Shown piece by piece: positions 2,993 to 22,754 of a DNA stretch of 22,754 nucleotides. A model generated the notes under the pieces. It saw only the letters and a list, made by a program, of their open reading frames with translations, had not been told where the DNA came from and did no database searches. The position numbers were made by a program, and so were the translations under genes. Source of the DNA: a virus. The stretch is from positions 1 to 22,754 of IMG/VR virus record IMGVR_UViG_3300012919_000044; one strand, written 5' to 3'. Position 1 is the stretch's first letter. The number at the start of each line of letters is the position of its first letter.

Positions 2993-5116
2993 ATGCGTAT
3001 TACAGACGGTTCAGCCGACTCAAAGCTTATGGACTATGAGGTTGACGATAATGGCGAAGGTCTATCGCCAGAAGATGACACTGATTGGTTAGAGTTAAGC
3101 CGTAGCTGTTATGACAATGCTGTTGACTATGTGCAAGCGGCGCATAGGGATGATTGGGAACGCAACCTTAATCTATTCAACAACGAACATCCAGCAGGGT
3201 CAAAGTATAATTCAGACGCATTTAAACGGCGCTCTAGACTGTTTAGGCCAAAAGTTAGGTCATATGTAAGAAAAAATGAAGCAGTCACAGCACAAGCGTT
3301 TTTCAGCACGAATGACGTTGTAAACATTACGCCGCAAAACGACAACGATCCTAACCAGTTAGCGTCTGCTAGCATCATGCAAGAGTTGTTGAATTACAGA
3401 CTGCAAAAAACAGTACCGTGGTTTAGGTTGCTGGTTGGCGCAAGGCAGACAGCCGATATTTACGGCATTACAGCCGCCAAGATCTTCTGGCATTATGCTG
3501 AAGCAGAAGACGGCGAAGAGGTGGTAGCTGACGAAAATGGTATGCCTATCATTAACGATAAAGGTGACATTGACATACAGCCCCGCATGACGGTGGTAAA
3601 AGATGAGCCTGTCATAGAGCCAATAGAGCCAGAAAACATTTTGTTTGATCCAGCGGCTGATTGGTTAGACCCTGTTGGAAGTAGCCCATATCTTATAGTC
3701 AGACGGCCTATGTTTGCTATTGATGTTAAGCAGATGATGGTGGATGCAGACCCCAAGACAGGCCAACCAGCATGGAAAGAATTGGATGATGCAACGTTAC
3801 AGCAAGGCAAAGAAGAGGATGCCGCTGATTTAGACGATGCACGTAATATGTTTGATGGGCCAAGCAGACGTGACACAGATGCGCCAATCGATGATTACGA
3901 AGTTGTGTTTGTGCATGAGAACTTTGTAAAGCGCGGCGATCAAGACTACCACTATTACACGCTGGCAACGGCGGCAATGCTGACAGATCCAACACCAGTT
4001 GGAGAAGTGTATTTACACTGCAAAAACGGTGACAGGCCAGTGGTCGTGGGTTACTCAAACATCGAAGCATTTAAGCCATATCCATCGAGCCGTGTGGAAA
4101 TGCTAGGGCCACTACAGCAAGAGTCAAACGACTTGGCAAACCTACGTATGGACGCACTGAAGTTCAGCCTAACGCCGATGGTCAAGGTAAGGCGTGGTAA
4201 CAAGGCGCTTGTGCCAGCATTGATGAACAGATCACCTGCTAAAGTCATTACAATGGATGATCCAGCTACTGACGTTGTTGAGATGGCTCCACCGCCAGTT
4301 AACAGTCAGGCTTATGCAGAGCAAGACAGGATCAACCTAGATTTCGACGAACTAGCTGGTAACTTTAATAATAGCAGTATTCAGTCTAATCGCCGCATGA
4401 ATGAGACAGTTGGCGGCATGGCGATGTTGTCAGGGCAAAGCAACACGCTTATGGAATATGACTTGCGTGTATTTAGTGAGTCGTTTGTCGAGCCTGTATT
4501 GCGTCAGATGGTGCATTTAGAGCAAGCATATGAGACTGACAGCGTTGTGTTGGCATTGGCGGCTGAAAAGGCAGACTTGTTTCAGAAGTATGGCATCAAC
4601 CAGATTACTGACGATCTGTTGCAGGGCGAGTTAACGGTAAATGTAAACGTAGGCATAGGCGGCACAGATCCATTGATGCAAGGCCGCAAGTTTGCGCTTG
4701 CGATGCAAACGTTTGGTCAGCTTGTAGCGCCACTTGTGCAATTGTATGGGCCTAATGTGTTAGAAACGTCAGGCGTGGAAGCGATAGCGTCAGAGATATT
4801 CGGCAAGGCTGGATACAAAGATGGTCAACGTTTTCTGAACTTTAAGGACGGTCAGGGCGAAGACCCACGCATACAACAGCTACAAGCGCAGTTGGGCCAG
4901 ATGGGTCAGATTATACAACAGCTACAGGGCCAAGTAAAAGACAAGAATATAGACCGACAAGTTAAATTAGCAGAAGCGCAGATGAAGGGTCAGATGGACG
5001 CACAGAAAGCGCAGATGGATGTTGAGGGCAAAGCCGCACTTGCAGAGCAAGGATTTAAGCTTGATCTAGCTAGAGCGCGATTAATGCCTAATGCAAGCAA
5101 CGTAAATGTAATGTAA
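2993..5116 (+). CDS. Portal protein
   Basis: The 707-residue product follows the terminase block and precedes scaffold and capsid genes, the usual portal position, and has the size of P22-type portals. After an acidic N-terminus it shows LFRPKVRSYVRKNEAVTAQ (83-101) and the long mixed core expected of the clip/wing/stem region. Residues from about 625 to 697 are a Gln-rich helical stretch (RIQQLQAQLGQMGQIIQQLQ then KLAEAQMKGQMDAQKAQMD), like the C-terminal barrel or coiled coil of long podovirus portals. Portals form the dodecameric ring at one capsid vertex that serves as DNA channel, motor dock and tail attachment. GGGAATAAG lies just before the ATG. The stop overlaps the next start as TAATG. 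Confidence 0.88.
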   Translation: MRITDGSADSKLMDYEVDDNGEGLSPEDDTDWLELSRSCYDNAVDYVQAAHRDDWERNLNLFNNEHPAGSKYNSDAFKRRSRLFRPKVRSYVRKNEAVTAQAFFSTNDVVNITPQNDNDPNQLASASIMQELLNYRLQKTVPWFRLLVGARQTADIYGITAAKIFWHYAEAEDGEEVVADENGMPIINDKGDIDIQPRMTVVKDEPVIEPIEPENILFDPAADWLDPVGSSPYLIVRRPMFAIDVKQMMVDADPKTGQPAWKELDDATLQQGKEEDAADLDDARNMFDGPSRRDTDAPIDDYEVVFVHENFVKRGDQDYHYYTLATAAMLTDPTPVGEVYLHCKNGDRPVVVGYSNIEAFKPYPSSRVEMLGPLQQESNDLANLRMDALKFSLTPMVKVRRGNKALVPALMNRSPAKVITMDDPATDVVEMAPPPVNSQAYAEQDRINLDFDELAGNFNNSSIQSNRRMNETVGGMAMLSGQSNTLMEYDLRVFSESFVEPVLRQMVHLEQAYETDSVVLALAAEKADLFQKYGINQITDDLLQGELTVNVNVGIGGTDPLMQGRKFALAMQTFGQLVAPLVQLYGPNVLETSGVEAIASEIFGKAGYKDGQRFLNFKDGQGEDPRIQQLQAQLGQMGQIIQQLQGQVKDKNIDRQVKLAEAQMKGQMDAQKAQMDVEGKAALAEQGFKLDLARARLMPNASNVNVM

Positions 5117-9476: not shown

Positions 9477-9803
9477 TTATACGCAATGAAAGCCATTACG
9501 AGCGAAGTAAGTCATATCTGTGCCGTTGTCTAAACGGTTAAAATACTCGCTTAACATAAATACAGATGTCCAGCGTCCGTTAGATAATTGAACAACTATA
9601 AAAATTGGGTCAAAATCAGTGTCGTTATAAGCACTGAAATCTTGTGCTAACCTTTCTGCTTTGTCGAAAGCGCGGTCACACGAAGCGTAAGTTTTGACGC
9701 TTGACTTGTTTTCTTTTAATCGTCGCTGTATGCGGTCAACAACACCCGAAATAAAATTGCCAGCAACTTTGTGGATTTGGGTTGGTGGTACATATGATGC
9801 CAT
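9477..9803 (-). CDS. Minus-strand accessory (moron-like) protein, 108 aa
   Basis: This is the only supported gene on the minus strand. The frame is open from 9848, but the ATG at 9803 (MASYVPPTQIHKVAG) has GGAG ten bases upstream and is preferred. The product has a basic helical first half (ISGVVDRIQRRLKEN, CDRAFDKAERLAQDF) and a beta-like second half (FDPIFIVVQLSNGRWTSVF) ending in ARNGFHCV. No signal peptide, membrane segment or known family was seen. It has its own terminator and promoter candidate and points against the late operon, the layout of a moron gene that can be expressed independently. A role in host control, exclusion or regulation of the adjacent promoter is possible but not shown. 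Confidence 0.75.
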   Translation of the reverse strand: MASYVPPTQIHKVAGNFISGVVDRIQRRLKENKSSVKTYASCDRAFDKAERLAQDFSAYNDTDFDPIFIVVQLSNGRWTSVFMLSEYFNRLDNGTDMTYFARNGFHCV

Positions 9804-9827
9804 GTGATTTCTCCAAATAAGTAACAA

Positions 9828-9851
9828 TAAATGTAATATAATACACATTTA
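9828..9851. promoter_or_regulatory. Divergent -10 region with inverted-repeat operator candidate
   Basis: A perfect TATAAT at 9837-9842 on the + strand overlaps the minus-strand -10 (9835-9840). No good + strand -35 is seen, so a + promoter would be weak or activator-dependent. The two boxes are framed by the 7-base inverted repeat taaatgt (9828-9834) / acattta (9845-9851), and the palindrome acatatgt follows at 9851-9858. This is a plausible operator from which one regulator could control both directions. Confidence 0.4.
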
Positions 9852-9870: not shown

Positions 9871-11235
9871 ATGCAAAAAAAATCAAATATTTTTGATCCT
9901 AAGTGGTTTATTGTGCCGTACAGTCGCGGTTTAGTTATGCAAATAGGTGGTGATCAACCGTTGTATCGTCATTTTTTGCTAACTGACACCGTAGAGATTA
10001 TTGCAGACGGTAAATTAGATGCGTTGGTCATAAACGGCGCTAAAATACCAGAAAGCAACACGTTCGAAGATTGGCGCAGGGTAATCAAGCCAGACGGCTA
10101 CATAATCTTTGTCAATCAAGACGAAACAGAAGCAAAAAACATATTAAGTGTTTGGTCAGATTGCGTGATAGCAAAACAGCGTAAGCAGTTGCTGGTTGTC
10201 ACGCCAAACAAGAAGGAAAAACAAAAACCAAAGCCAGACAAGTCGTGTCTTGTCGTAAGATATGGCGCATGGGGTGATCAGATTATATGCGCTGGCATAT
10301 TTCCATTGCTTAGAAAGCAAGGATACCATGTGACGTTAAATTGCCAAGCGCCACAGCACGTTATAAACGCAACGCACCCTGACATTGACGAATTAATGGT
10401 GCAAGACCGCAATCAAGTGCATAACGATGACTTGGTGACGTACTGGCAAGCTATCGCAACCGAATATGATAAAGTTGTTAATCTTAGTTCAAGCATAGAA
10501 GGGCAGTTACTACTAAGCCACGAACACCCAAAGTATTTTTGGTCACAATCTGCAAGGCACAAGCTGTTTAACCAGAATTATATGGAGATAACGCATGATC
10601 TTGCTGACGTGCCATATAATTTTCGTGGATGCGTTTTCCATGCAACGGCTGATGAAAAAGAACAGGCCAAAGAAATACGGCAAAGGTTTGATGCGCCGTT
10701 AGTCACATGGGCTGTTGCTGGTTCCAGCGTACATAAATGGTATCCGCACATGGCAGACGTGCTTGTAGGGTTGTTAGAACAGACAAATGCCTACGTTATG
10801 TTAATGGGCGATAAAGAAGCAATGGTTTTACAAGAGTCTGTGCTTGAAGAGACAGAAAAACGATATGGCTCTGTAGAGCGCATAGCGGCCCAATGCGGCA
10901 CGTTGCCGATGCGGGCATCAATGGCACTGGCGCAAGTGTCAGACGTGGTTGTAGGGCCAGAAACAGGGCTTCTAAACGCTGTTTGCATGGAAAAAAACCA
11001 TAAAGTTGTAATGGTCAGTCACAGTGGGCCAAAACAGCTTACAAAACACTGGAAAAACACAAAAGAAATCTTGCCGCAAAGTACGGCGTGTTTTCCATGT
11101 CACCGATTGCATTTTGATTTTGAACACTGCAACCAAGATGACAACACAAAGGCGGCAAGGTGCAGTGCCAGTATAGAGCCAGCAACAATTATTAAGGCTA
11201 TAAAGAATGGATTACACAACGCTAGTCGCAAATAA
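9871..11235 (+). CDS. GT9-family (heptosyltransferase-like) glycosyltransferase with decayed methyltransferase N-terminus
   Basis: The 454-residue product has two parts. Residues 126-454 match GT9 (ADP-heptose:LPS heptosyltransferase-like): CLVVRYGAWGDQIICAGIFP at 126-145, the nucleotide-sugar site VVGPETGLLNAVC at 360-372, and the Cys-rich end CFPCHRLHFDFEHC (407-420). Such enzymes transfer sugars from nucleotide donors to glycans. Residues 1-110 recall a class I SAM methyltransferase (KWFIVPYSRGLVMQIGGDQ; then TFEDWRRVIKPDGYIIFVNQ, 64-83), but motif I is altered and the central strands are missing, so methylation is unlikely. AGAGG precedes the ATG. Lying between head and tail genes, it could glycosylate virion proteins or alter host surface glycans. 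The last 29 bases overlap the adaptor gene. Confidence 0.82.
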   Translation: MQKKSNIFDPKWFIVPYSRGLVMQIGGDQPLYRHFLLTDTVEIIADGKLDALVINGAKIPESNTFEDWRRVIKPDGYIIFVNQDETEAKNILSVWSDCVIAKQRKQLLVVTPNKKEKQKPKPDKSCLVVRYGAWGDQIICAGIFPLLRKQGYHVTLNCQAPQHVINATHPDIDELMVQDRNQVHNDDLVTYWQAIATEYDKVVNLSSSIEGQLLLSHEHPKYFWSQSARHKLFNQNYMEITHDLADVPYNFRGCVFHATADEKEQAKEIRQRFDAPLVTWAVAGSSVHKWYPHMADVLVGLLEQTNAYVMLMGDKEAMVLQESVLEETEKRYGSVERIAAQCGTLPMRASMALAQVSDVVVGPETGLLNAVCMEKNHKVVMVSHSGPKQLTKHWKNTKEILPQSTACFPCHRLHFDFEHCNQDDNTKAARCSASIEPATIIKAIKNGLHNASRK

Positions 11236-12206: not shown

Positions 12207-14078
12207 ATGGCTTCAACACCATCAGAACGCCTTTCATTACGTTTGATTGGCACAGGTGATTTTGCTGATACGTGGGGTGCTGAACTTAACAGCGATACGC
12301 TAGCCCTAATTGATGAGGCTGTGTCAGGTGTAGAAGAGATAAGCCTTACTGGCAACATAACTCTATCAACAACGCTGTATCAAACAAACCAAGCACGAAA
12401 TAGGGTATTGCGATTCACAGATGGTGGTTTGTCATCAGCGCCTACTATTGGGCTACCGTCTACAGAGCGTTGGTATGTAATTCAAAACGCTACTGGTGGC
12501 ACTTACGCATTAACATTCAACAACGGATCATCAAGCGTAAGCGTAGCCGCAAATATTGACACAGCCATTATCTGGCAAACTAATAACACACTGTATGGAA
12601 TAGACTTAGCAAAAGGCACAGACGTTGCCACAGTTGCCCCAGAAATAAGCAACAACAACCTGCAAACGGTTGCTGGGCAGATTGCGCCAACTAATAACTT
12701 ATCTACCGTTGCAGGAATAAACAGTGATATAACGACGGTTGCAAACCCTACTTATAAGGCGCTTGTCGAGGTTGTTGGAGAAGCAACCTACAAGGCACTG
12801 GTCGAGGTTGTTGGCGAGACAAACTACAAAGCACTGGTCGAAGTTGTCGGAGAGTCTGTTTACAAATCTCTTGTCGAAACAGTAGGTAACGCAACTTATA
12901 AAGCGTTAGTCGAAACGGTTGGGGAAACAACCTACAAAGCATTAGTAGAGACAGTAGGTGAGTCAGTTTATAAATCCGTTGTTGAGACGGTAGGAGAGGC
13001 TGTCTATAAAGCGAAAGTTGAAACAGTCGCTGATGCAACTTATAAAAGCCAAATTGAGGCGCTAAACGATGTAACATATAAAGCGCAATTGCAAGATATT
13101 GCAACAAGCCCCTACAAACCGTTAGTTGAAACGGTGGGTAACGCAACCTATAAAGCACTCGTTGAAGTGGTTGGTGAGTCAACTTACAAAGCACTCGTTG
13201 AGACTGTAGGAAATGCCACATATAAAGCGGTAGTGGAAACGGTTGGTGAGTCAGTTTACAAAGGAAAAGTTGAGACAGTAGCGGGAATTAGCAACGAGGT
13301 GCAATCTGTTGCTAATGCGGAAGCCAATGGTGCTGTATCGGCGTTTGGCACTATATACCAAGTTAGCACCAATAATCCTACAGCTAGAGGCATCGGCTCG
13401 ACGCCGTTAGTTTCAGGTGATTTGGCCTACGTGTCGTCCGTAAATAAACTGCGAACATATAACGCGACTTTAGGCGTGTGGGAAGACGCTGGAAGCGCGG
13501 TATCAGGACTGCGAGAAATCTATCAGTATGTAGCGACTGCTGGGCAAACTTTGTTTCCAGCTACAGGAACTATTAGTTATGATCAAACGGCTGGCGGCGC
13601 GGCAATTTCAGTTTATCTCAATGGTGTACTGCTCAAAACCACCGACTATACAGCTACGAATGGAACAACGGTAACTCTTGCAAGTGGCGCGGCTCTTAAC
13701 GATGAAATAAGTATACATACATTTGGCACGTTCAACGCCGCTAACACGTACAGTCAAAGTGCGGCAGATGCGCGGTTCTACCAAAACCCAGCGGTAGCCG
13801 ACTTAGATATGGGTTCGCAGTCGATTTCATCAGGCACATTGAGAGTAAAAAATACTGGTAGTCAATCTCAAGTCCAATGGTTCTGTGAAGTTGGCAATGC
13901 ACATTATGTAGCTTTGCAAGCACCACCACACGCACAATTTTCTGGAAATGTTGTTCTTACGTTACCGCCGAATACTGGAACGGTAGGGCAACTTTTACAA
14001 ACCGATGGCAATGGCGTCATGACATGGGGTAACGCTCCGGCTGGGTCATCAATCGCGTCAACGCTCAAATTTGCCTAG
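12207..14078 (+). CDS. Tail fibre protein with fifteen 12-residue repeats
   Basis: The 623-residue product has TAGGAG before its ATG. Residues 1-135 look like a virion-binding domain (MASTPSERLSLRLIGTGDF, found in short-tail fibre N-termini; ALTFNNGSSSVSVA). Residues 150-181 carry LQTVAG/LSTVAG/ITTVAN motifs seen in fibre shafts. Residues 182-361 are fifteen tandem units of 12 residues, consensus T-Y-K-A-L-V-E-T-V-G-E-S. The C-terminal part (ISVYLNGVLLKTTDYTAT; later NVVLTLPPNTGTVGQLLQ) has the beta-rich pattern of fibre tips and trimerisation ends. The protein probably forms a trimeric fibre that extends from the tail to the host. Repeat number may set fibre length. Confidence 0.85.
   Translation: MASTPSERLSLRLIGTGDFADTWGAELNSDTLALIDEAVSGVEEISLTGNITLSTTLYQTNQARNRVLRFTDGGLSSAPTIGLPSTERWYVIQNATGGTYALTFNNGSSSVSVAANIDTAIIWQTNNTLYGIDLAKGTDVATVAPEISNNNLQTVAGQIAPTNNLSTVAGINSDITTVANPTYKALVEVVGEATYKALVEVVGETNYKALVEVVGESVYKSLVETVGNATYKALVETVGETTYKALVETVGESVYKSVVETVGEAVYKAKVETVADATYKSQIEALNDVTYKAQLQDIATSPYKPLVETVGNATYKALVEVVGESTYKALVETVGNATYKAVVETVGESVYKGKVETVAGISNEVQSVANAEANGAVSAFGTIYQVSTNNPTARGIGSTPLVSGDLAYVSSVNKLRTYNATLGVWEDAGSAVSGLREIYQYVATAGQTLFPATGTISYDQTAGGAAISVYLNGVLLKTTDYTATNGTTVTLASGAALNDEISIHTFGTFNAANTYSQSAADARFYQNPAVADLDMGSQSISSGTLRVKNTGSQSQVQWFCEVGNAHYVALQAPPHAQFSGNVVLTLPPNTGTVGQLLQTDGNGVMTWGNAPAGSSIASTLKFA
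12750..13289 (+). repeat. Coding tandem repeat, 15 units of 36 bp
   Basis: The start of each unit aligns on a TAYAAR (Tyr-Lys) pair spaced exactly 36 bases apart, with no gap over 540 bases. At the protein level most units read close to TYKALVETVGES. At the DNA level they differ at many third positions (for example gtcgaggttgttgg against gtcgaaacagtagg), so the repeat is kept by protein selection and not by recent copying. Units 8-10 are the most diverged (KAKVETVADA, KSQIEALNDV, KAQLQDIATS). It has no unique spacers and is fully coding, so it is not a CRISPR array. Confidence 0.95.
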
Positions 14079-14087
14079 GAGGAAAAA

Positions 14088-15752
14088 ATGGCAGATCAAG
14101 TAAAACAACTCGCTTTTCGCAAATTGACTACAAGTGAAATAGAGAATGGCAGTGCGGTTAATGTCTTAACCACTGACGCTTCTACGCATTACGTTTTGAA
14201 AAGCATAGAGGCCACACAAGGAACAACAACAAGTTCTGTGGAGGCAGAAGCGACGATTGGTCTTACTGCTGGGTTATCTGCAGGTGAATTTACATCACTA
14301 GGCACTGTGGCTAAAGCAGGTAGGATTGGCGTTGAAGGCTCAGTGATTATGGATAGTAGTTCGACGCTAACTATTCGTCCTACAGCAAAAGCTATTACGT
14401 ACGCTGATGAACAAATGCAGTATGGAATGGAGAGTAATGCTACACCTTCTAAATTTAGAAAAGTAGTAACGCCGTCAGTGAATGGTGTCGTAGATACTCC
14501 GCTAATTACGCGAACAACAATCGATAAAACAGCGCAAACTTTTTCTGGCCCGACAATTCAACTCACTACATATACAAACAATCACGGCTTTATTTATGAA
14601 CGCAGTGACGGTGTAAATATTAGAGTTATTATGTTTTGCGGTTCATCAAGCGGTGCAGGCTTTGAAGTTTGGAACGCTGATAACGGCACACTTTACGGCT
14701 ATCATTATGTGTCGTATGCGGCTCCGCATTGGGATGGTGGCAGGTACATATTTGCGTGGAATGAAAATAATAAAACGCAAATTCAATATTACGATCTCGA
14801 GGAAAGCCTTACAAATTTAGCCGCCGCTAACACATACGGCGGAGGTAGCGGTGCTAATTTTTATCATGGTCTTATAAACGATCCATCGGCAGGAAATCAC
14901 CCTAACTATTCGTTTAGTAGTTACGATAATCGACGAAGTTGTTTTTATCTCGATAGACACAGTAATAGGAGATTTTTAGCGCAATATTTTTCGGGTAATC
15001 AGACGTTTTCCATGTTTGAGTTTCCTACTGGAACATTAACAAATTACGATGCTACGGCAAACGAAGCTACGAAATGGGTGACACTGGCAACAGGAAGTAA
15101 TGGTACCCAAACAGACTATTTTGGCAACAATAGCGGAAATGCTTGGAGTTTTGTTTATTTTGTAAGCAATTATGCGTCAAATGCTCAATGTACCTTTAGA
15201 ATGAGTTACGATGAGGCAAAAGGGTATTATTTTATTTATGTTTGGGAAGGCTCTTACGTTGCCCCATTTATTTTCTCAAAAACTGATTACGATGCAACGG
15301 CTAACGGAGGGGTACTTAATACGCCTAACAACAATAGTTATGGCTTGATTATGCTCTCTACCTATTCGCAAAGTGACGTTAATATCGGTAACGTTTGGTT
15401 TTACTCTTATTCAAATTATAACGCCACGATACGGATGAGTTATTTGGAGTCAAATAGACCTGCTGGAAGTGCCAGTTGGCAATACAGTTCGAATAACGAA
15501 AGATGGGTTGATGGTTCTAGTTTGGTTATGGCTAATCATTCTACGCCAAACCGCATTTATAAAATAAGTTTTACTGACGGCACAACTACGGAAATTACTA
15601 CAGGAATGACAGACGCTGAAGCTAACGTTAATTACAATAAGTCATTTTGGTATGGTTACTCTGTGCCGTCTGCCTCAACTATCGCAACGCGCAACTATGT
15701 GGTAGCGCCTAGTTTGAAAATACGGGTAACTGGAATTTTATCAGATCAGTAA
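14088..15752 (+). CDS. Aromatic-rich tail adhesin/fibre-like protein, 554 aa
   Basis: AGGAGG lies before the ATG, so expression should be strong. Residues 1-115 are a beta-rich anchoring domain (VKQLAFRKLTTSEIENGSA, then ATIGLTAGLSAGEFTSLGTV), of the kind seen at the start of aquatic-phage tail proteins. Residues from about 150 on are very rich in Tyr, Phe, Trp, Asn and Ser, with beta-strand pairs such as GGRYIFAWNENNKTQIQYYD, RRSCFYLDRHSNRRFLAQYF and KGYYFIYVWEGSYVAPFIFS. Strand pairs separated by Asn/Gly-rich turns suggest a beta-propeller or similar receptor-binding fold. No lyase or hydrolase motif was seen. It probably contacts the cell surface. A virion structural protein without host contact is the alternative. 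Confidence 0.7.
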   Translation: MADQVKQLAFRKLTTSEIENGSAVNVLTTDASTHYVLKSIEATQGTTTSSVEAEATIGLTAGLSAGEFTSLGTVAKAGRIGVEGSVIMDSSSTLTIRPTAKAITYADEQMQYGMESNATPSKFRKVVTPSVNGVVDTPLITRTTIDKTAQTFSGPTIQLTTYTNNHGFIYERSDGVNIRVIMFCGSSSGAGFEVWNADNGTLYGYHYVSYAAPHWDGGRYIFAWNENNKTQIQYYDLEESLTNLAAANTYGGGSGANFYHGLINDPSAGNHPNYSFSSYDNRRSCFYLDRHSNRRFLAQYFSGNQTFSMFEFPTGTLTNYDATANEATKWVTLATGSNGTQTDYFGNNSGNAWSFVYFVSNYASNAQCTFRMSYDEAKGYYFIYVWEGSYVAPFIFSKTDYDATANGGVLNTPNNNSYGLIMLSTYSQSDVNIGNVWFYSYSNYNATIRMSYLESNRPAGSASWQYSSNNERWVDGSSLVMANHSTPNRIYKISFTDGTTTEITTGMTDAEANVNYNKSFWYGYSVPSASTIATRNYVVAPSLKIRVTGILSDQ

Positions 15753-15765
15753 AAAGGATTAAAAA

Positions 15766-16116
15766 ATGTTTACACCTATAGATGAAACAGCATCTTCCGC
15801 TAGTAGTGGTGCCAGCCCGCAACCAGACAAACAAATAGGTGCAACTGCAAACGGTGCAAACAGTTTAGTTTATACTGTGCCTGCGGGCAGAAAATTTGTG
15901 GGTTATTGCTCAAATAATACTTGGAATAACGGATCGTATTGGGCGCAGTTAGAAGTAGATGGCACTGTTATTCGTCATCACAGCGGTTTTAGTGCTGATC
16001 TTTTTTCGGGATATACAGGCCCACCAACACCTGTTTTAACGCTTCTTGCTGGAACGGTTGTAAGAGTCGGTAATGGTGGCAATGTTTTTGTGTTCGGAGT
16101 AGAGAGTGATGCTTAA
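15766..16116 (+). CDS. Small beta-rich tail accessory protein, 116 aa
   Basis: AAGGA precedes the ATG, and the gene starts 13 bases after the 554-residue adhesin gene. The product has a Ser/Ala-rich start (MFTPIDETASSASSGASP), then SLVYTVPAGRKFVGYC, YWAQLEVDGTVIRHHSG and a hydrophobic strand PVLTLLAGTVVRVGNGG. The pattern of a V/I-P-AGR-K turn followed by L-x-AG-T-x-V is common in small phage domains with jelly-roll-like folds. It may cap the preceding adhesin or be a minor tail protein. There is no recognised family. Confidence 0.6.
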   Translation: MFTPIDETASSASSGASPQPDKQIGATANGANSLVYTVPAGRKFVGYCSNNTWNNGSYWAQLEVDGTVIRHHSGFSADLFSGYTGPPTPVLTLLAGTVVRVGNGGNVFVFGVESDA

Positions 16117-16375
16117 AAAAATTATAAAAGGTATAGAGTATGAAATAATTACAGAGTTTGAGGCAGACGGTCAAGGCAACGCAATAGCTAAAACTATTGT
16201 TGAAGAGGGCGAAACGTCAGAAAATAAGTACCGCCTTAGAACAGGGGTGAAAAATCCATTAACACAAGTGCCGTTCAATAATGATATAGACGCATTTAAT
16301 GCTTATATAGATGGTGTGCCTGACACACATTTTAACATTTATTGGGAAGACCCAGCGCCAGAGGAAGGTGAATAA
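16109..16375 (+). CDS. Small acidic protein next to fibre genes, 88 aa
   Basis: A GTG at 16106 and an ATG at 16109 are adjacent possible starts. The ATG is chosen, with GGAG at 16096-16099. It overlaps the previous gene by eight bases and the next by one (TAATG). The product starts MLKKIIKGIEYEIITEFEA and ends in the acidic DPAPEEGE. The size, acidity and position between two large fibre genes recall tail-fibre assembly chaperones or small tail proteins, but no family was recognised. Confidence 0.6.
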   Translation: MLKKIIKGIEYEIITEFEADGQGNAIAKTIVEEGETSENKYRLRTGVKNPLTQVPFNNDIDAFNAYIDGVPDTHFNIYWEDPAPEEGE

Positions 16376-17988
16376 TGAGCAGGGCTAGAGATGTTGCCAG
16401 CAACAATTTGGCGCTAATCAACCCAACTAGCGATGGCAACCTATTAACTGCTAGTTCGGGAGCATGGGTGTCGCAAGCACCAGCGCCAGCCCCACCATCA
16501 GGAAACCAAGTAGAGATGGTTGCCAGCGGCACAATTGCTAATGGCGATACTGTAATATTAAACAGTGACGGCACTGTTTCGGCTATTACTGGCGCGGCTG
16601 GCGGTGAGTTTTCAGAAGTAACAATGTCAAATAACGCAAGCACAATAATGAAAACAAAAGGCACGTTTCATTCTGTCGAAAATAAAGTTGTCGTTGTTTG
16701 TCAAAGCTACAATACTTCTACTGCCAATTATGACGGTGTAATAATGGCCGCTACGATAAGCGGTGACACATTAACTTTTGGTTCAGCGCACGTTTTTAAC
16801 ACTAACTATACAAATGACGTTGATGTTGCTTATGACGTATCTGCGAACCATCTTGTGGTTATTTACGAAGATACAACCTCGCAATATGGAACAGTAAAAG
16901 CGTTTTCACTGTCTGGCACAACATTTACAGAAACACAAAGTGCTTTGCGTATCAATAGTACAAACTCAGCACGTTCAGTTAGAATACAATACGATCCAGA
17001 CAATAATTGTACTGTTCAATTCTGTGGGAATATTAGTTCATCTAATTACGGTCAAGCTAGGGCGATTGTTTGCAGTAACAGTGGTGCGCTTACCATACAT
17101 AATGTTACGACTTTTGCATCGCATGGTACTGAGAAAATTAAAACGATTTACAATACAACAGAAAATCATCACCTTATCGTATATGAAAATCTAAATAACT
17201 CAAACTATTCACACTATGCCATTGTAAATGTAATTGGTACTCAAGCTACAACTCAAAGCTCTGGGCAAAGTATAATGCAAACTGGTTGGGAGCAGTCAGA
17301 TATTGCTTACAATCCAGACCAAAACATCGTTGCGTTTTCTGGACAATACGCTGGCAATGGTAGCTATGAAGGATACATAGTCCTTTTAATACCCTCTGGA
17401 ACCCATGCCTATACTAATACTGGCGCACCTAGTGGAACAGCAAATAGATTTACGACAAATCCCCCAAGTGAAACCGCTTCTTGGACGCGAATGATGTATA
17501 ACCCAGACACGCAAAAATTCAATGTGTTTTGGTATGGCAACAATAGCACGACGATTATCAATCCAATTAGGGGAGCGCAGTTTACTGTAGATACTTCAAC
17601 AAATGCCATAACATTCGAAACTGCAATAACATTGAGTACAACAAGTGGTGTGCATTACATTAACCCTGTTTACGACACTAATTCAGATCGTATGTTTATT
17701 GCTTATCAAGATCAAACTGATGGTAACAAAGGTCATGCTGGTATCTATAAATTTCCTAGTACAACGCTAACTACATCTAATTTTCTTGGTTTTGCAAGTG
17801 GCTCTTATACTAATGGGCAGACAGCAACCATTCAAACCACAGGCAATGTTGACGATGCGCAAAGCGGCTTAGTCATCAATACGACTTATTTCGTGCAGAG
17901 TGATGGCAGTTTAGGAACAAGCCCATCAGGACTAGCAAATGTGACGGCTGGCAAAGCTATTGCCGCAACCAAAATATTAATTGCGTGA
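16375..17988 (+). CDS. Tail fibre/adhesin with a seven-repeat beta-propeller-like domain
   Basis: GAGGAAGG and a TAATG junction favour strong, coupled translation. The 537-residue product begins MSRARDVASNNLALINPTS, a typical virion-binding start of phage fibre proteins. From about residue 97 to 446 a motif of hydrophobic-Tyr-[ND]-x-x-x-[ND] followed by a beta strand and an aromatic end recurs seven times: near 97, 151 (VAYDVSANHLVVIYED), 204, 257 (TIYNTTENHHLIVYEN), 310, 373 (MMYNPDTQKFNVFWYG) and 431. The spacing of about 53-63 residues fits a seven-bladed propeller. From 468, NFLGFASGSYTNGQTATI and later GKAIAATKILI form a C-terminal domain common in phage fibres. A carbohydrate- or protein-binding receptor role is inferred. 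Confidence 0.75.
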   Translation: MSRARDVASNNLALINPTSDGNLLTASSGAWVSQAPAPAPPSGNQVEMVASGTIANGDTVILNSDGTVSAITGAAGGEFSEVTMSNNASTIMKTKGTFHSVENKVVVVCQSYNTSTANYDGVIMAATISGDTLTFGSAHVFNTNYTNDVDVAYDVSANHLVVIYEDTTSQYGTVKAFSLSGTTFTETQSALRINSTNSARSVRIQYDPDNNCTVQFCGNISSSNYGQARAIVCSNSGALTIHNVTTFASHGTEKIKTIYNTTENHHLIVYENLNNSNYSHYAIVNVIGTQATTQSSGQSIMQTGWEQSDIAYNPDQNIVAFSGQYAGNGSYEGYIVLLIPSGTHAYTNTGAPSGTANRFTTNPPSETASWTRMMYNPDTQKFNVFWYGNNSTTIINPIRGAQFTVDTSTNAITFETAITLSTTSGVHYINPVYDTNSDRMFIAYQDQTDGNKGHAGIYKFPSTTLTTSNFLGFASGSYTNGQTATIQTTGNVDDAQSGLVINTTYFVQSDGSLGTSPSGLANVTAGKAIAATKILIA

Positions 17989-20952: not shown

Positions 20953-21357
20953 ATGCTAAGATTAGAGGGTGACGCATTAAGAACGGCATGGCCCCAACTG
21001 CGATATATGATCGAGCAAGCACGAAACAAAAGCAAATGCACTGACGCATTTATTGTAGAAGACGTTTACCACCAGTGCATGATCAACGACACATTCTGTT
21101 ATGTGGTTGGAGAAGGTGCAACGATACAAGGCGCCTTGTTTTTGCGTCCAGTAAACAACTTTGGTGAGATGGAATTACACGTGTGGTTAGCGTGTTTTAG
21201 AAGACCAGCATCATTGGCAAACCATGTGCAGTGGCTAGAAGAGTTAGCCAGATCAATCAAGGCGCAACGTATTACCTGTCATTCGCCAAGGGCGTTTGAG
21301 AAGTATTTAGAAGGAACAGAAGTAGTCAGCAAACGATTTGTAAAGGAGTTATTCTAA
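20953..21357 (+). CDS. GNAT-like internal virion protein (T7 gp13-like)
   Basis: The 134-residue product starts directly after the previous stop (TAAATG, no Shine-Dalgarno). It contains AFIVEDVYHQCMINDTFCYV, the strand TIQGALFLRPVNNFGEMELH, HVQWLEELARSIKAQRITCH and a final SPRAFEKYLEG...EVVSKRFVKELF. The order of strand, central sheet, helix with an L-x-x-LA pattern, then a short R-I-x-x-x-SPR segment and a final strand matches GNAT-fold proteins encoded in many podovirus tail regions, of which T7 gp13 is the known example. A clear acetyl-CoA loop (R/Q-x-x-G-x-G/A) is not seen, so catalysis is doubtful and a structural role is more likely. Confidence 0.65.
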   Translation: MLRLEGDALRTAWPQLRYMIEQARNKSKCTDAFIVEDVYHQCMINDTFCYVVGEGATIQGALFLRPVNNFGEMELHVWLACFRRPASLANHVQWLEELARSIKAQRITCHSPRAFEKYLEGTEVVSKRFVKELF

Positions 21358-21701
21358 TGAGTGGCGGCTCACAAACATCATCATCAACAGTAAAGCTTGA
21401 TCCAAGGTTGCAAAGCCTTGTTGACAGCATTTTAGATTATACGCCAGCAATCATGGAAAGACCTTTTCCTAAATATGACTTGCCGCGCATTGCCAGCTTT
21501 ACGCCTGATCAGTTACAGGGGTTTGATATGACAAGGGCAAACATTGGAACTTTCCAACCAGCTATGAACCAAAGCATCAATACGCTTGCACGATTTGCAC
21601 AAGGGCCAAGAGTGCAGGGTACAAGTATGCAAAACGGCATGATTAATACCCAACGTGCCACAGGAATACCATTGCCTAAATTACCAATGCCAACTGCTTA
21701 G
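21357..21701 (+). CDS. N-terminal half of a common phage structural protein, 114 aa
   Basis: AAGGAG and a TAATG junction mark the start. The product (MSGGSQTSSSTVKLDPRLQS, then PKYDLPRIASFTPDQLQGFD and NIGTFQPAMNQSI) matches the first part of a widespread phage protein whose usual opening is a Ser/Thr-rich start, P-x-L-Q, then a conserved F-[ST]-P-x-Q-x-x-x-F stretch. In that family the same chain continues into an NPY...AGAFGGS region. Here the frame stops after LPKLPMPTA and the NPY/AGAFGGS part is in the next gene, so the family protein appears split. It probably acts in the tail or as an ejected internal protein. The function is not established. Confidence 0.6.
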   Translation: MSGGSQTSSSTVKLDPRLQSLVDSILDYTPAIMERPFPKYDLPRIASFTPDQLQGFDMTRANIGTFQPAMNQSINTLARFAQGPRVQGTSMQNGMINTQRATGIPLPKLPMPTA

Positions 21702-21709
21702 AGGTTTCA

Positions 21710-22754
21710 ATGAGTAACCTAGATGTATTTGATCAGAATTTTCTAATAGATAATTTTGATGAGGCCGCATACTTGGCGCAAAACCAAGACGTGGCAAATG
21801 CTATAGCTGATCCAGATTCACCATTCTCTATGGCATCAAATGTTGATTATGACGGTGATGGCGTAATTACTGGCCTCGATCATTTCTTGCATCATGGAAT
21901 GGCTGAAGGTAGAGCCGCGCCATTAATAGCGCAACCAGAGCCAACAGTTTCATACACGCCAACCGCGCCACAGCCTACATTTTCACCTGATCCTGTGCCT
22001 GTCAGTGAAACAATCCCAATGGCCCCACCGCCAATGGCGCCAATAAATTTAAACGTGGTCGAAGGTGCTGACTTAGCGGAAAACTATTTTAACCCTTATC
22101 AAAGTGAAGTAATTAACCAGTACATTAATACGTTTGGCGATGCGTTATCTAGAGCGCAGTTGTCTAATAACGCACTTGCTACAGCCGCTGGTGCATTTGG
22201 TGGTAGCGGTCAAGGTGTTGCAACGGCGCTAACAAATGAAGCCGCATTAAATACATTTGGTGATGATATTGCAAAGCTACTGCAACAGGGGTTTGACACT
22301 GCTAACACACTTGGCCTAGCTGATGCCAGCCAATATAACAATATGACAGGGCTGGGCGCACAATTACAGATGCAAGGCGCAAGAGCGTTGCCTGATGCCG
22401 CGCAGTCGCAACAGAATATGCAAAATACTGACGTGCAAAACCTGTTGAACATAGGCGGCGCACAGCAAAATCTAAGTCAACAAAGCTTAGACCTTGCTTA
22501 TGACGATTTCATAAAGCAGTTCCAATACCCAATGGAGATGGTCAACTTTGGTGCTGGCCTTGCCTCTGGCGTACCTACAGGAACGACAACGATTGGCAAA
22601 ACGCCAAGAGACATGGGCGGTAAAATGTCAGGTGCTGGAAGCTTAATGTCAGGAGCCGCAAAGTTAGCGCCTGTTGCGGGTGTAGGGAAATGTTGGGTGG
22701 CAAGAGAAGTTTATCAGGACGATAGATGGTTGCTGTTTAGGCAATGGCTAGAAA
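21710..22754 (+). CDS. C-terminal half of the structural protein with an EF-hand-like N-terminal module (partial at window end)
   Basis: GAGG lies five bases before the ATG at 21710; 348 codons lie in the window and the stop is beyond it. Residues 16-70 read FDEAAYLAQNQDVANAIA ... HFLHHGMAEGRAA, the FD-x-x-YL-x-x-N-x-DV ... H-x-x-x-x-G-x-x-EGR pattern of secreted adhesins and S-layer-like proteins. Between the halves sits an EF-hand loop (D46, D48, D50, G51, I53, D57). A Pro-rich linker (about 71-110) leads to NPYQSEVINQYINTF and AGAFGGSGQGV, the middle of a common phage structural family begun in the 21357 gene. Near the edge, CWVAREVY at 328-335 begins a motif often found at phage tail-protein C-termini. 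A tail or ejected protein is likely. Confidence 0.75.
   Translation, partial: MSNLDVFDQNFLIDNFDEAAYLAQNQDVANAIADPDSPFSMASNVDYDGDGVITGLDHFLHHGMAEGRAAPLIAQPEPTVSYTPTAPQPTFSPDPVPVSETIPMAPPPMAPINLNVVEGADLAENYFNPYQSEVINQYINTFGDALSRAQLSNNALATAAGAFGGSGQGVATALTNEAALNTFGDDIAKLLQQGFDTANTLGLADASQYNNMTGLGAQLQMQGARALPDAAQSQQNMQNTDVQNLLNIGGAQQNLSQQSLDLAYDDFIKQFQYPMEMVNFGAGLASGVPTGTTTIGKTPRDMGGKMSGAGSLMSGAAKLAPVAGVGKCWVAREVYQDDRWLLFRQWLE

Follow-up and report, generated by a model that had tools for sequence, protein, structure and literature searches.

The window analysed here is the whole 22,754 bp of an IMG/VR record, in which a terminase gene is followed by genes for the portal, the major head protein and a stabilisation-type protein. 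Among named phages, the stabilisation-type protein is closest to its counterparts in the Roseobacter phages CRP-901 and CRP-902 with about 28% identity, pelagiphages being farther off, and judged from these relatives we infer a marine origin of the window. The phage was probably short-tailed. Towards the end of the window three genes follow each other on the plus strand. An upstream gene (20953..21357) encodes a 134-aa protein (phrog_610, E=1e-7) in an acetyltransferase-like position; acetyltransferase or GNAT genes are annotated at the equivalent place in CRP-902, MW202879 and Octadecabacter Antarctic DB virus 2. It is followed by a gene for a 114-aa protein (chain 1, 21357..21701) and by a gene for a protein of 348 aa up to the contig end, where its reading frame is still open (chain 2, 21710..22753). 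Chain 2 consists of a module with an EF-type loop, a proline-rich linker (21926..22060, residues 73-117, with 13 Pro in 45 residues), a middle domain (22061..22639) and the start of a C-terminal box. The window stops inside chain 2; in the relative L113, genes for 494 aa and 797 aa come next. In the relatives, the acetyltransferase-like gene (134 aa) stands first, followed by those for chain 1 and chain 2, for proteins of 494 aa and 797 aa, and for a lysozyme-like protein.

The initial annotation proposed that the two products are the usual start and the usual middle of one phage protein family, and the HMM searches together with PHROG 4287 (DNA ejection protein, 392 positions) bear this out. 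Chain 1, which contains ASFTPDQLQGFD, is the separate N-terminal part of a PHROG 4287-type protein, and chain 2 contains the middle part with NPYQ...AGAFGGSGQGV (NPY at residues 128-130, AGAFGGSGQGV at 160-170). Residues 152-325 of chain 2 align to positions 142-319 of the profile, thus to its middle only (E=3e-6), whereas fused relatives cover it almost completely (L043 with residues 3-347 on positions 6-386, E=4.1e-26; L086 with E=1.5e-35). The middle part is what chain 2 shares with PHROG 4287; the window and its near relatives encode the N-terminal part as a separate protein and their clade has gained the EF-bearing module and the proline-rich linker. Pfam returned no significant family for either chain.

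With HMMs built from both chains, the N-terminal and middle parts were found in a single ORF in 58 loci, with the N-terminal part first; the window group and one isolated phage have them on separate ORFs. The two-gene form is present in seven further IMG/VR contigs (L002-L007 and L014, of which L005 and L007 look identical), and a truncated eighth contig (L013/L083) contains chain 1 and breaks off early in the module. In the fused loci a variable hinge or linker of about 9-165 residues separates the two parts. The window and its EF-bearing split relatives form a single clade in the middle-domain tree (98/98) that is surrounded by fused rows, so that the split is most simply taken as the derived state. 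At the level of sequence, these comparisons show that the chain was cut at the variable hinge of the family between the N-terminal and the middle part, which clearly exemplifies a gene split at its hinge that has also gained a domain. The family is also encoded as two chains, divided at a similar hinge and with the ATG directly after the stop, in Octadecabacter Antarctic DB virus 2 (gp17/gp18, MW805364), but there the EF module is absent and gp18 ends in an S74 domain. This split probably arose separately from that of the window clade, although a single origin of both was not rejected (AU test, p=0.076). The corresponding locus (L073, 6787-8346) is annotated as a hypothetical protein and a tail spike protein/chaperone. 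In L006, the 15 bases past the chain 1 stop (4986-5000, GGGGGAGTTGCTTAG) are the counterpart of the final codons of chain 1 in L004 and L005, which indicates that chain 1 was shortened in the L006 lineage.

Two adjacent ORFs in place of one could also result from an assembly error, from a decaying gene or from a product joined via frameshift or readthrough, but we regard this as very improbable. The arrangement in L004 and L005 would suit such an explanation, since both genes lie in one frame there, with a lone stop and an ATG immediately after it. Against it stands the split itself, which recurs in the seven further contigs; the indel or assembly error named beforehand as the finding that would undo the split was thus not encountered. 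Furthermore, both chains are under constraint: where an estimate was possible, dN/dS is 0.03-0.14 in chain 1 and 0.04-0.11 in the middle domain, and it is 0.24-0.50 in the proline-rich linker, which is looser. By these ratios, purifying selection is acting on both. The second gene is offset in frame by +2 in the window, L002, L003 and L014 and by 0 in L004-L006; counting distinct members, four have +2 and three have 0, showing that neither frameshift nor readthrough is conserved, and in every member the ATG of gene 2 is preceded by an in-frame stop of its own. In the window this is a TAA in the chain 2 frame (21677..21679), 33 nt upstream of the ATG, and a Shine-Dalgarno-like AGAGG (21700..21704) lies between the two. 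The initial annotation had used this TAA to exclude a simple frameshift; the stop is indeed there, but taken alone it leaves a shift within 21680-21699 possible, and the varying frame relation in the relatives excludes frameshifting better. The relatives and the selection on both chains thus speak against an assembly error or pseudogene, and the varying frame relation against a conserved frameshift or readthrough.

At its N-terminus, chain 2 has a module of cellular type (FDEAAYLAQNQDVANAI...TGLDHFLHHGMAEGR, residues 16-68, 21755..21913) with the pattern FDExxYLxxNxDVAxA...GLDHFLxxGxxEGR. A profile made from ten cellular copies scores the window module with 57.2 bits, compared to 10.5 bits for the best of 5000 shuffles of it, and the modules of L005 and L014 with 46-48 bits; these scores are somewhat inflated, as the cellular sequences were chosen by similarity to the phage modules. 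The match spans both halves of the module and reaches the relatives. Individual tblastn matches are weak (best E=2e-3), and two weak ones (L102 and L111) did not show the module. The cellular copies were retrieved from proteins that plasmids of Alphaproteobacteria and cyanobacteria encode; among them are RTX proteins, and the annotations read calcium-binding, hemolysin-type, M10 metallopeptidase, DVUA0089 family or glycosyltransferase. The gain of a cellular module at the new N-terminus thus holds, but its earlier assignment to secreted adhesins was too narrow, since an M10 metallopeptidase and glycosyltransferases carry it as well. A tblastn search against phages gave no credible copy in other phages, and a degenerate DNA pattern for the second half of the module matched no more than seven IMG/VR contigs, each of which belongs to this family. 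A PDB search with the module profile returned calmodulin-type loops and one other weak match.

The phage module resembles the cellular FDxxYLxxNPDVAxA...HFLxxGxxEGR module on either side of a segment that is longer than its cellular counterparts (residues 35-53, 21812..21868). In the cellular modules only a few residues lie between DVAxAV and SGLDHFL, whereas the phage copies are about 15 residues longer here, and these residues supply D46, D48, D50, G51 and I53, with the segment holding EF positions 1-8. The following T54-G-L-D57, EF positions 9-12, belongs to the module itself. Together they form a 12-residue EF-type loop (DYDGDGVITGLD, residues 46-57, 21845..21880) that reads D46-Y-D48-G-D50-G51-V-I53-T-G-L-D57. 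The loop was absent from the cellular copies examined: none was found at the equivalent place in plasmids, and none in 291 genomes from the phylum of the sole MAG match. Within the 10,028 aa of the window ORFs the EF motif is unique, and it arose by chance in 339 of 200,000 shuffles of chain 2. All eight aligned rows share D46, D48, G49, D50, G51, T54, G55, L56 and D57, and positions 47, 52 and 53 vary. Relatives that have the module but lack the Asp residues, named beforehand as evidence against the site, were thus not found.

The loop had been described as a textbook EF loop, which is true for positions 1-12 of PROSITE PS00018; position 13, however, is His58 and not hydrophobic. Position 12 is Asp instead of Glu, as in dockerins. 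Dockerin type I shares the DxDxDGxIxxxD loop, the Asp at position 12 and a predicted helix after it, but has a pair of Ca2+ loops within about 60-70 residues, whereas chain 2 has one, with His at position 13; Pfam Dockerin_1 matched weakly in three of seven relatives (best E=0.12). AlphaFold predicts a helix at residues 58-68, an entering helix is not evident (confidence below 50), and most of the module has a pLDDT below 50. Models of the split chain and of one fused relative had low confidence outside the C-terminal box, and a Foldseek search with the AlphaFold model gave no match. Judged from the alignment, the loop is a dockerin-like half EF-hand that is completed by the module's own TGLD. 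Asp-12 loops are found in dockerins and bind Ca2+, and we infer that this loop binds Ca2+ as well. An Asp at this position lowers the selectivity for Ca2+ over Mg2+ in many EF-hands.

The loop lies in a locally divergent stretch (21807..21950) that has probably been exchanged by recombination. L002 shows 118 differences to the window over 1675 bp, and 39 of them are concentrated in these 144 bp (maximum in 2000 permutations: 26); the differences to L003 cluster in the same way. The loop segment has reached synonymous saturation, whereas dS is about 0.16-0.3 in the flanks. The simplest reading of these patterns is that related phages have recombined the loop segment with the calcium-ligand residues retained, and the retention of these residues despite saturated synonymous divergence argues that the EF site is under selection. 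The C-terminal stretch 22628-22754 is likewise divergent. Both stretches have sharp edges, and elsewhere the relatives are mostly 90-98% identical, which suggests that cassettes may be exchanged at both ends of chain 2. At the C-terminus the window contains the start of a CFI-box-like CWVAREVY box (22691..22753, NF041770) that is complete in relatives. CFI-box-CTERM (NF041770) aligned over its full length (1-69/69) in L003, but with 14.9 bits (E=0.017) below the cut-off of 40. In the AlphaFold model of L002, pLDDT is 71-84 across this C-terminal block of about the last 57 residues. Within the EF clade the box occurs in two forms or is absent (L014). Peptidase_S74 was found at the C-terminus of the fused L043, L052, L064, L070 and L086 and of the split L073, and was not seen in the EF clade, which has the CWVARxVY box or nothing at this end. 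In the L002-L007 proteins the box occupies the place that S74 has in several fused relatives.

DNA ejection is a putative role of chain 2, more likely than that of a tail appendage. For PHROG 4287 this function is a database label, with which the gene order of the relatives agrees, since it resembles the small-medium-large order of ejection operons (PMC8954989). Such clusters contain three genes of increasing size, with products of 229, 471 and 609 aa in P22, and domain swapping is known among ejection proteins (PMC8954989). The order and comparable lengths are those of T7 gp14-gp15-gp16 and P22 gp7-gp20-gp16. T7 gp14-like genes are the first and smallest of their cluster, and in L113 the gene is likewise followed by the 494-aa and 797-aa genes. 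T7 gp14-like proteins have transmembrane helices, whereas none was predicted in chain 2 (Kyte-Doolittle maximum 0.93 with a 19-residue window). This counts against the ejection reading, as do the S74 ends of several fused relatives, which would fit tail appendages. A PDB search with the family profile returned no solved structure, which also counts against this reading.

The reading we tentatively prefer, plausible rather than probable, is that of a two-chain PHROG 4287 virion protein with a module that would fold with Ca2+ and then attach the ejected protein to the host envelope. Chains 1 and 2 would act together in the virion. The module would be disordered in the calcium-poor cytosol of the host and during passage through the portal, and would fold where calcium is available, outside or in the periplasm, akin to RTX repeats that fold on exit; the folded module could then dock or anchor the protein at the envelope. 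Sea water contains about 10 mM Ca2+ and the bacterial cytosol far less, so that the putative site would be empty during assembly and filled outside. Because it would probably always be filled in sea water, folding on exit is more plausible than a trigger at adsorption. The calcium-triggered change in an ejected or tail protein put forward in the initial annotation found no support. The His at position 13, the entering helix that is not evident and the low pLDDT of most of the module count against the preferred reading. The full claim is quite unlikely to hold in all its parts: a genome-delivery protein with a genuine calcium site, made by grafting most of an EF-hand loop into a module of cellular surface proteins, that folds or docks only after leaving the capsid, through the calcium step from the host cytosol to sea water or the periplasm.

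It is also possible, if rather doubtful, that chain 2 sits on the tail exterior and that the module is a piece of a surface adhesin or appendage merely stabilised by Ca2+. S74 domains are common on trimeric tail fibres and spikes, and the terminal S74 of several fused relatives and of the split L073 would fit this location, as would the presence of the module family in RTX and hemolysin-type proteins and the local exchange of the module segment between near-identical phages. But the top family label is DNA ejection, the 494-aa and 797-aa genes adjoin this one, an order of the ejection type, other large candidate tail-fibre ORFs are located elsewhere (12207-17988), and no S74 was seen in the EF clade. 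Somewhat less probable still, the loop might be a rigid, constitutive Mg2+/Ca2+ turn with no regulatory or ejection role, and the split and graft near-neutral mosaicism. Sea water is rich in both ions, and the reduced selectivity of Asp-12 loops would suit such a turn; the split would cost little as it falls in the hinge that varies in the fused relatives. The retention of all ligand residues over saturated synonymous divergence speaks against neutrality and points to a selected site, but does not imply a switch.

Ejection-type proteins are poorly understood and change their shape strongly. In the docking reading that we prefer, the conserved calcium-type site would offer a testable handle on how an ejection protein senses its exit from the capsid. 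It would also be a clear case of a metal site assembled by setting two thirds of a loop before a fold in which the remaining third was already present.

Some further observations concern the window and its relatives. A phage contig of this group (L084, PBIO01000021.1, 34,887 bp) that appears identical to the IMG/VR contig L014 is part of a Halobacteriovorax MAG; this may be wrong binning or a hint at the host and says little about the host. Amid the structural genes of the window, a 454-aa glycosyltransferase family 9 (heptosyltransferase)-like protein is encoded at 9871-11235, just under the Pfam cut-off. Between it and the head genes lies a 123-aa ORF on the minus strand (9477-9848), while the surrounding module is on the plus strand. 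The 623-aa fibre-like protein encoded at 12207-14078 contains many near-identical short repeats (VVGE-TYKALVE), and its family matches are weak and unrelated.
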